Positions 29,595 to 49,255 of a stretch of DNA of 64,000 nt are shown piece by piece. The stretch comes from Desulfovibrio sp. (GTDB lineage Bacteria; Desulfobacterota; Desulfovibrionia; Desulfovibrionales; Desulfovibrionaceae), in the NCBI GenBank assembly GCA_016208105.1, contig JACQYS010000010.1:62001-126000 (forward strand), given 5' to 3'. A program made the translations under genes and the position numbers. The notes under the pieces are model-generated. The model had not been told where the DNA came from and did not search any database. It saw only the letters and a list, made by a program, of their open reading frames with translations. The stretch's first letter is position 1, and the number at the start of each line of letters is the position of its first letter.

Positions 29595-30218
29595 ATGAGC
29601 GAACAAACCCTCGATTGCCTGGGCATGACCTGCCCCCAACCCCTGGTGGCATGCCGCAACTGCATTGAAAGCTACCACCCGGATACGCTGAAGGTTCTTG
29701 TGGACGACGAGGCCGCGCTGGAAAACGTCACCCGCTACCTCACCTCAAGCGGATACGAGCCGCGAAGCGTTAAGGACGGCCGAGCCTGGGTCATCACAGC
29801 CACTCGGGGGCCAGACGCTGGCCAGAAGAAGGCTCCGGCGGTCGAGGACTTTCCATGCCCGGTTCCATCCAAAAGCGAAATCCAGCGGATTGTGGTGTTT
29901 CTCACCGCCGACATCATCGGACGCGGCGACGACGAGCTTGGCGGCAAGCTCATGGGCAACTTCCTGAAAACCTTGCCGGAACTTGGTAAGGAATTGTGGC
30001 GGGTGGTGATGGTCAATGCCGCCGTGAAGCTCTCAGCAGCGGGAAATGCGAACCTCGAGGCCTTGCGCGCCCTGGAAGCTCAGGGGGTGAGCATCCTGGT
30101 GTGCGGAACATGCCTTGAGTTCTTCGGACTGTTGGACAAGCGCGCCGTAGGCCAGACCACCAACATGCTGGATGTGGTCACCAGCCTGCAGCTGGCCAGC
30201 AAAGTTATCAATATATAA
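29595..30218 (+). CDS. yedF: YedF-type protein (TusA-like plus DsrE-like domain)
   Basis: A 207-residue fusion. Residues 4-75 are a TusA/SirA domain with LDCLGMTCPQPLVACR, the CPQP motif carrying the sulfur-transfer cysteine. Residues about 95-207 are a DsrE/F-like domain (IVVFLTADIIGRGDDELGGKLMGNFLKTLPE, then ILVCGTCLEFFG with its cysteine). This architecture is the TIGR03527 'selenium metabolism protein YedF', found mostly in organisms that use selenium and near selenium genes. The role in selenium trafficking is suggested, not shown. It is relevant because a candidate selenoprotein with the same TusA fold is encoded at 48.3-48.5 kb. Confidence 0.87.
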   Translation: MSEQTLDCLGMTCPQPLVACRNCIESYHPDTLKVLVDDEAALENVTRYLTSSGYEPRSVKDGRAWVITATRGPDAGQKKAPAVEDFPCPVPSKSEIQRIVVFLTADIIGRGDDELGGKLMGNFLKTLPELGKELWRVVMVNAAVKLSAAGNANLEALRALEAQGVSILVCGTCLEFFGLLDKRAVGQTTNMLDVVTSLQLASKVINI

Positions 30219-47783: not shown

Positions 47784-48266
47784 TTATTCTCCGGCGATAT
47801 GCCTGACAATCTCCACAGGCAGCATGGTCCGCTTGCTGACTTCCTCGAAGCTCAGGCCCTGGGCCAAAAAGCGTTTCGCCACGAGGGGCATCGGCTCTCC
47901 TATCTCAACAATGCGGCCCTCCGGGTCCCGGACCCGAAAACACCGCTGCCCCCAGGGCTGCTCGCGTAGTTCATGAATGAAGGGCACTTTGGCCACGCGC
48001 ATTTTTTCCAATTCGGATTCAATCTCACTCGATTCGAAATAGAGCTCAAACACCGCGTCGGTGTTTTGCGGTTCTGAAAGAGCCTGGTTGCCGAATATCA
48101 TGGCGTGCGCCCCAGTGGCCTCCCAGAGAGAGAACTTCGAGGCATAGGCCGTATACGCGTCTCCAACGGCGAAGAGCACCTTCTGGTCCAGCAGATTCTC
48201 GTAGAAAGCACGGCAGGAAGCCATGTCGCGCACCATCACCGCGGGGCCTTCGAACGAAAGAGCCAT
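47784..48266 (-). CDS. VOC-superfamily (glyoxalase/bleomycin-resistance-like) protein
   Basis: A 160-residue protein; residues 4-115 form the vicinal-oxygen-chelate fold: FEGPAVMVRDMASCRAFYENLLDQKVLFAVGDAY and RCFRVRDPEGRIVEIGEPM, whose FRVRDPEGRIVEI is the classic VOC end. The C-terminal 35 residues are a short helical addition. AGGAGGGAAC is directly upstream. Metal or substrate is unknown. It is the last gene of the minus-strand array that begins at cpoB and follows the candidate selenoprotein by 52 bp. Confidence 0.85.
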   Translation of the reverse strand: MALSFEGPAVMVRDMASCRAFYENLLDQKVLFAVGDAYTAYASKFSLWEATGAHAMIFGNQALSEPQNTDAVFELYFESSEIESELEKMRVAKVPFIHELREQPWGQRCFRVRDPEGRIVEIGEPMPLVAKRFLAQGLSFEEVSKRTMLPVEIVRHIAGE

Positions 48267-48318: not shown

Positions 48319-48537
48319 TCATCTCAAAAAACTGAACCGGTGCACACCGTCTTGTTCCTCATGTTCCAAACGCCACTGTGAATAGGTTGCGGCCAATTCC
48401 TCGAATACCGGAGCCTGCCCGGCTTCGGCCCAAACATCCAGCCGCGCGGCCTGAACGAACCGGAGGTGCCACCCGACCTCCGCGCCCACGCCTCAGCACT
48501 TGCCGCGAACATCCAGCACCACTCTCTCATCTGGCAT
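48319..48537 (-). CDS. Candidate TusA/SirA-fold selenoprotein (in-frame TGA read as Sec15)
   Basis: Not found by ordinary ORF calling because of an in-frame TGA at 48495-48493. From ATG 48537 (GGGAG seven bases upstream, inside the aat end) the frame reads MPDERVVLDVRGKC, TGA, then GVGAEVGWHLRFVQA and on to HRFSFLR and a TGA stop: 72 codons. Strand/helix order (b-a-b-a-b-b) and length fit TusA/SirA. Aligning LDVRGKC-TGA with LDALGLRC of E. coli TusA places the TGA on the catalytic cysteine; the Pro after it is Gly. A 7-bp hairpin lies just 3' of the TGA. A minor overlapping ATG frame (68 codons, Trp/Arg-rich) is less protein-like. Selenium use is inferred from the TGA, hairpin and the YedF gene; no selABC genes are in this window. 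Confidence 0.65.
48461..48482 (-). promoter_or_regulatory. Candidate bacterial SECIS hairpin
   Basis: On the minus strand CGGAGGT (48482-48476) pairs perfectly with ACCTCCG (48467-48461); the 8-base loop CGGGTGGC is G/U-rich. The loop starts 18 bases after the in-frame TGA, inside the 16-37 base distance known for bacterial SECIS. It could also be a chance GC-rich stem. Confidence 0.5.
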
Positions 48538-49255
48538 GCAAAAACTCCCTACGTTTTATGGGATCGTTCCACCACGGCTGGCTCCTCCAGCCTTCGATTT
48601 CACCGGGCAGAGCGGCCGCCGCTTCCACCAGCCTGGTGAACTTGAGCCGCGGGATTTCCCGCGCTCCAAGGCGCATCACATGGGGCGTGGACTGCTGGCA
48701 ATCCATAAAGCTGTACTTTAACTTTTCCAGCAGCAAGACCAGGTGCACCAAGGCCACCTTGGAGGCCTGGCCCACGTCGTGGAACATGGATTCCCCAAAG
48801 AACGCCCGGCCCACGGCCACGCCGTAGATGCCGCCCACCAGGCGGCCATGAAGGCGGCACTCGATGCTGTGGGCGTAGCCGGAATGGTGCATCCGGACGT
48901 ATGCCCGGATCATGTCGTCCGTGAGCCAGGTGCCCGCCTGGCCATGGCGTTCCGCCGTGGCGCAGGCGCTGATAACGGCCTGGAAGTCGGTGTCGACGGA
49001 GAGTTCAAAGGGGTGGCCGCGAAGGTAGCGGCGAAATCTGGCGTCGAGCCTGAGCTCGTTCGGCACCAGGATGGGGCGGGGGTCGGGAGACCACCACAGT
49101 ATGGGGTGGTCCTCGTTGTACCAGGGGAAGATGCCGTGGCTGTAGGCCTCCACAAGCCTCCGAATGCTCAAGTCCCCGCCAACGGCAAGAAGGCCCCCGG
49201 GGTCGGCGGTTTCCGGATCGGGAAAACCCAGCGCTGTAGTGAGCAAAGTGATCAC
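48527..49255 (-). CDS. aat: Leucyl/phenylalanyl-tRNA--protein transferase
   Basis: A 242-residue Aat, which adds Leu or Phe from its tRNA to proteins with N-terminal Arg or Lys so that ClpS/ClpAP can destroy them. Motifs: LLAVGGDLSIRRLVEAYSHGIFPWYN and PILWWSPDPRPILVP, HSIECRLHGRLVGGIYGVAVGRAFFGESMFH, and DCQQSTPHVMRLGAREIPR. The start GTG 49255 is the only one that includes the conserved LLAVGG region and lies 4 bp after the upstream stop. The end overlaps the candidate selenoprotein. Confidence 0.93.
   Translation of the reverse strand: MITLLTTALGFPDPETADPGGLLAVGGDLSIRRLVEAYSHGIFPWYNEDHPILWWSPDPRPILVPNELRLDARFRRYLRGHPFELSVDTDFQAVISACATAERHGQAGTWLTDDMIRAYVRMHHSGYAHSIECRLHGRLVGGIYGVAVGRAFFGESMFHDVGQASKVALVHLVLLLEKLKYSFMDCQQSTPHVMRLGAREIPRLKFTRLVEAAAALPGEIEGWRSQPWWNDPIKRREFLHAR

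Follow-up and report, generated by a model that had tools for sequence, protein, structure and literature searches.

A short minus-strand gene of Desulfovibrio sp. very likely encodes a 72-residue selenoprotein with a TusA-like fold (probability roughly 0.9), and the UGA at its codon 15 almost certainly specifies selenocysteine (Sec), as judged from sequence comparison. Within one taxonomic family 131 of the 288 genomes searched carry a gene of this type, as do 34 genomes from three further families of the order, and together these genes apparently constitute an unannotated selenoprotein family. The window, meaning the whole 64,000-nucleotide stretch of DNA that was analysed, holds the gene as a frame of 72 codons including the stop, which on direct reading runs from an ATG at 48537-48535 to a closing TGA at 48321-48319 (Table 1). 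Its start overlaps the end of the aat ORF by 11 bases, and aat is not part of the usual operon of the selenoprotein. The sequence-only reading had described the ATG behind GGGAG, the TGA at codon 15, the TGA stop and the overlap with the end of aat, and the sequence is exactly so. Also encoded in the window, 18 kb from the selenoprotein, is YedF (29595-30218, plus strand; TIGR03527, 198.6 bits), which has a TusA domain and a second domain.

Table 1. The selenoprotein gene, its elements and its neighbours in the window
Feature	Coordinates	Strand	Basis
Probable selenoprotein gene, predicted TusA-like fold, motif K-C-U-G	48319..48537	-	reading, homolog and profile searches, predicted fold
In-frame TGA, codon 15, taken as selenocysteine	48493..48495	-	conserved TGA, Cys in paralogs
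Bacterial SECIS-type stem-loop	48461..48482	-	7-bp stem, 8-base loop, G at second loop position, TGA-loop distance 17 nt
GGGAG, likely ribosome-binding site	48545..48549	-	direct reading; 7 bases before ATG
aat, leucyl/phenylalanyl-tRNA protein transferase, upstream neighbour	48527..49255	-	PF03588, 234 bits
VOC/glyoxalase-domain protein, downstream neighbour	47784..48266	-	PF12681, 89.6 bits

Relatives of the frame are frequent among close genomes. The single protein, carrying X at the TGA, was used as a query against 288 genomes of its own taxonomic family (E <= 0.01) and finds matches in 129 of them, the best match having the in-frame TGA in all 129. The codon at the Sec position is TGA in 129 of the 130 loci read and TGC in one, a paralog. 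Profile A1, consisting of 39 sequences, matches 133 of the 288 genomes, 131 with the TGA type, while G162 and G165 have a stop-free match only. A combined profile applied to 348 genomes of the class matches 175, including 35 in three other families of the order; the TGA type is found in 34 of these 35, and the match in G688 has no stop. With the combined profile G162 has two matches, as opposed to one with profile A1. Across the own family and the three others, 165 of 168 matching genomes have an in-frame TGA match, and this, together with constraint on both sides of the codon, upholds the proposal that homologs would preserve the frame around a TGA at the same place. A profile search of 395 genomes of the phylum gave 6 matches, all in the own family, with at most 14 candidates scored per genome and a draw that was perhaps poor in other families. 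Two scans of a named genome collection with a query carrying Cys in place of the TGA found no relative.

Because independent assemblies from 165 genomes show this TGA and constraint acts downstream of it, a sequencing error or pseudogene in the window's own genome is extremely improbable, and for the family as a whole that explanation is refuted. One relative does look broken: L026 (G228:C1) has an additional TAA in its second half, while the frame of the Cys paralog, L165, is unbroken. L026 was excluded from the alignment and from the selection counts, as were from the matches two weak second hits, G207:C1:607411 (three TGA and two TAG) and G204:C5:53788 (one TAG). From the other families 30 loci of 35 genomes were read, with G686, G687, G688, G710 and G712 left out. 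Of the 161 loci, 160 have Cys immediately ahead of the TGA and one, L171 (G148), has Gly; the residue following Sec is Gly in 143, His in 14, Arg in 3 and Ala in 1. The Cys of the CUG motif proposed from the sequence is therefore a near-constant feature, whereas its Gly is variable. Profile A1 is invariant at M1, D9, C14, the Sec position and L25, and nearly so at G16, E20, W23, R26 and W55. Members from genus g12 (L104, L111, L113, L114, L115, L121, L123) have a C-terminal extension with a Gly/His-rich tail, which may perhaps bind metal.

Substitution patterns indicate that protein-level constraint is acting on both sides of the TGA. In 473 non-independent pairs whose proteins are 65-97% identical, the dN/dS upstream of the TGA is 0.18; it drops to 0.08 over the next twelve codons and is 0.23 further downstream. 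The synonymous difference falls to 0.25 in the twelve codons past the TGA, compared with about 0.55 elsewhere. Values of 0.47, 0.25 and 0.86 obtained from 3153 divergent pairs were judged saturated and set aside. Stops interrupt the two other frames of the same strand in 125 and in 113 of the 128 genes; the opposite-strand frames contain them in 40 (a fairly open frame), 86 and 111 of the 128.

A stem-loop begins 10 bases past the TGA, with CGGAGGT (48482-48476) pairing with ACCTCCG (48467-48461) around a loop at 48475-48468. It had been noticed earlier as a perfect 7-bp stem-loop at this distance, which a second reading confirms. The window copy (distance 17, loop 8, stem 7, dG -10.3) fits published rules for bacterial SECIS elements, taken here as the bacterial model of PMC13188914 with the element 16-37 nt downstream and with a dG of the stem-loop itself of <= -7.5. 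Loci of the own family obey these rules in 118 of 131 cases and those of the other families in 18 of 30; the background is 98 among 1500 TGAs taken at random from the window and 92 among 1500 further TGAs within the loci themselves. Folding of the 45 bases that start at the TGA is more stable than that of shuffled versions (mean z -2.46, 131 loci), while five other offsets give z from +0.08 to -0.33 (44 loci each). Codon choice within the element is also narrow: Leu25 is CTC in 127 of 131 loci, as against 85 of 608 Leu codons further down, and Glu20 is GAG in 128 of 128, as against 424 of 698. Across 106 distinct sequences the stem is paired in 95.6% of cells (shuffles 90.0%; versions with the stem slid, 35-59%), and four stem pairs are altered on both sides. 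Covariation scores 0.194, a value reached in 0 of 500 shuffles, compared with 0.106 after shuffling. The suggestion that a SECIS element follows the TGA is thus borne out by a covarying stem-loop that obeys the published rules in the window copy. In the other families part of the loci have a different stem sequence; the g288 loci (L213-L232 range) mostly combine His after Sec with a different stem, and several of them fit the SECIS rules poorly.

These observations bear directly on whether the TGA is an ordinary stop, which would leave a 14-residue peptide or, by restart at codon 17 (GTG in the window), a shorter protein. Codon 17 is ATG, GTG or TTG in 91 of 161 loci, as a restart would require, but it is no start codon in the other 70; in-frame conservation and constraint extend to the residues ahead of the TGA (dN/dS as given above), the codon is TGA in 131 of 131 Sec-type loci and TAA or TAG in none, and the covarying SECIS-type element lies downstream. 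An ordinary stop is therefore very improbable, and decoding as Sec is strongly preferred.

The machinery for Sec incorporation, whose presence had been set as a check on the Sec reading, was found complete in the window's own genome, which encodes selA (600 bits), selB (366 bits), selD (334 bits) and a tRNA-Sec with anticodon TCA. Its selD (L150 1122-2042, C3) has an in-frame TGA and probably encodes a selenoprotein itself. Among the 288 genomes selB exceeds the cut-off in 121 of the 131 with the gene versus 111 of the 157 without it (Fisher p 2e-6, uncorrected for relatedness). The 56 genomes under the selB cut-off were picked out by E-values, in number as the tally of the selB search gives, and the ten of them that bear the gene are all less than 90% complete or in at least 220 contigs.

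Stop-free relatives of the selenoprotein provide a further line of evidence. Profile A1 finds at least 19 stop-free matches in the own family, and all 19 listed were read. They are taken to be paralogs, since 17 of the 19 genomes with a stop-free match also have the TGA type. At the Sec position all 19 have Cys followed by Gly, within CGLVP, CGLIP, CGLMP or CGTIP, so that the search for Cys homologs suggested by the sequence-only reading was successful. The residue before this Cys varies among C, V, T, S, A, K and M; because it is variable in the paralogs and near-fixed beside Sec, the vicinal Cys seems to go with Sec. A tree of 79 rows, built on no more than 82 columns, unites the 49 Sec rows (100/99) and, separately, 15 TusA domains, with 15 Cys rows between them. 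The paralogs also weigh against decoding of the TGA by other means, for example insertion of Trp or Cys by a near-cognate tRNA. This is extremely unlikely in view of the Cys-for-Sec paralogs, the SECIS-type stem-loop, the Sec machinery and the similar in-frame TGA in selD of the same genome. The original proposal that the TGA is read as Sec consequently draws support from the conserved TGA, the Cys paralogs, the machinery and the covarying stem-loop, all of which are comparative in kind.

The predicted fold of the selenoprotein is TusA/SirA-like, with Smr and Alba, other two-layer domains, scoring nearly as high as TusA against it; the model of a Cys paralog is TusA/SirA-like too, with tied rows. 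In an hhalign profile alignment the Cys of the paralogs falls on the Cys of the TusA CP motif, in agreement with the earlier alignment of the TGA with the TusA catalytic Cys. Taken alone, the Sec profile fails to align with TusA across the active site; its match, at 14%, is confined to the C-terminal half. Structure prediction and profile alignment together make a TusA-like fold highly probable, with the Sec closing strand 1 in the position that the persulfide-bearing Cys occupies in TusA. Sequence kinship with TusA appears moderate and is visible through the Cys paralogs. The description of the protein as TusA-like accordingly stands for the predicted fold and falls for family membership, since Pfam and NCBIfam models recognise 0 of 39 members. 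The YedF model TIGR03527 does not match the selenoprotein. Foldseek and a viral fold library gave no match at E <= 0.001, PHROGs gave none, and a PDB sequence search with profile A3 returned designed repeats, importins and a phosphodiesterase, with TusA absent.

The common genomic setting is unlike the aat/VOC setting of the window. In 95 of 130 loci the selenoprotein gene lies between genes for an MBL-fold hydrolase (PF00753) and an FMN reductase (PF03358), and in 8 more the reductase alone was seen; the flanks read measured 1.5 kb at 30 loci and at most 3 kb at 100, and contig ends truncated some of them. Of the 30 loci from the other families, 29 have both neighbours and all 30 the reductase; the copy L219 in G671:C1 has both. 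The result is a three-gene unit (hydrolase, selenoprotein, flavin reductase) in sulfate reducers. The selenoprotein gene is located elsewhere in the genus of the window, as it is in g39, g17, g25 and g3, and there the MBL-FMN pair stands alone (six genomes examined: L174, L187, L188, L189, L192, L193); L174, from the window's own genome (C17:115953-122522), has hydrolase and reductase adjacent with no selenoprotein between them. The pair is also found in genomes lacking the selenoprotein (14 loci), and no Cys ortholog occupies the operon position in these 14. An FMN reductase at E <= 1e-20 is encoded by 128 of the 131 Sec-type genomes versus 129 of the 157 others; among four Sec-less genomes of otherwise Sec-bearing genera it is absent from G162, G165 and G231 and present in G270.

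TusA carries a persulfide on Cys19 (PMC5372717), and in thioredoxin reductase flavin electrons pass via the Cys-Sec selenenylsulfide of the GCUG motif (PMC2268967). Joining these two precedents favours a redox or persulfide relay on a small carrier, which is advanced tentatively, at slightly less than even odds. The UGA at codon 15 is very probably decoded by SelB and tRNA-Sec, guided by the downstream stem-loop. The Sec would accept sulfur, as a persulfide, or an oxidising equivalent, and the adjacent Cys would resolve it as a Cys-Sec selenenylsulfide, in the manner of the GCUG motif of the mammalian enzyme. A flavoprotein, most likely the FMN reductase encoded alongside in most relatives, would then re-reduce the pair, while the MBL-fold hydrolase may act on a thioester or persulfide substrate. 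This mechanism is weakened by the MBL-FMN pairs that occur without the selenoprotein and by the location of the selenoprotein gene away from the pair in the window's genus. Alternatively, the selenoprotein might deliver selenium or sulfur to SelD, tRNA thiolation or cofactor making and have no reductase-coupled relay. The TusA and YedF relatives make such deliveries (PMC5372717, PMC2432076), YedF is encoded in the same window, and a stop-free paralog directly follows mnmE, a gene of tRNA wobble-uridine modification, in two loci (L165, L168), where it may serve tRNA thiolation. The genes that recur beside the selenoprotein gene nevertheless encode the MBL hydrolase and the FMN reductase, and selD, mnmA and cysteine desulfurase genes are not among them. 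A redox role is also suggested by the vicinal Cys, at a position almost fixed beside Sec and variable in the paralogs. Delivery is on balance rather unlikely, and the Cys-Sec relay is the preferred proposal. What a Cys-Sec pair does on a sulfur-carrier fold thereby becomes testable.

The selenoprotein family seems to have been missed by annotation. Table 1 of PMC13188914 (2026), with its 119 selenoprotein families, includes no TusA/SirA member, the nearest rows being YeeE/YedE transporters, DsrE-like and rhodanese-like proteins and other CU-motif families. SirA and TusA are unmentioned in PMC9312934, and searches of open-access papers listed none on a TusA/SirA selenoprotein. The authors of deep-Sep state that selenoproteins without Cys homologs may be filtered out, and for Desulfomicrobium orale they list six known and no new selenoprotein genes (PMC12013277). 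If the operon place has no Cys ortholog, as in the 14 loci above, this would explain why searches based on Cys homologs miss the family, which points to a blind spot of selenoprotein prediction for families without Cys homologs. In its fullest form the proposal is of a selenoprotein family that spans the order, has so far gone unrecorded and would be the first of TusA/SirA-type fold, whose vicinal Cys-Sec pair would make of a sulfur-carrier scaffold a flavoprotein-fed persulfide/selenenylsulfide relay in sulfate reducers, and which would have a single origin from a Cys paralog with no Cys ortholog in the operon place. Taken whole, this has a little under an even chance of being right.

The closest relatives of the selenoprotein in the tree are the stop-free paralogs, which share with it the motif order DxxxxxCG and of which those tested, like it, match no Pfam or NCBIfam model. 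They differ in having Cys for Sec, a variable preceding residue, other neighbours and, in many cases, a C-terminal tail closing in a stretch of the L-x-x-x-Y type. The TusA/SirA/YeeD carriers (PF01206) have Cys where the selenoprotein has Sec, which is preceded here by a vicinal Cys, and CPxP where it has UGxG or UHxG. In relation to the TusA family proper (PF01206 / NF001423), the selenoprotein shares the fold, as predicted, and neither matches the family models nor contains CPxP. YedF (TIGR03527) resembles it in its TusA domain, in being named for selenium metabolism and in having one copy in the window, and differs in its length of 207 aa, its second domain and its lack of an in-frame TGA. 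Adjacent Cys and Sec are found, as here, in SaoC, SaoL, HgcA, MbdU, KCU-star and Csac_0668 (PMC13188914, Table 1), and the CU-motif rows of that table have other domains, none of them TusA/SirA. The GCUG motif of mammalian thioredoxin reductase likewise places Cys beside Sec, as in the selenoprotein, in an enzyme that is not a TusA/SirA protein.
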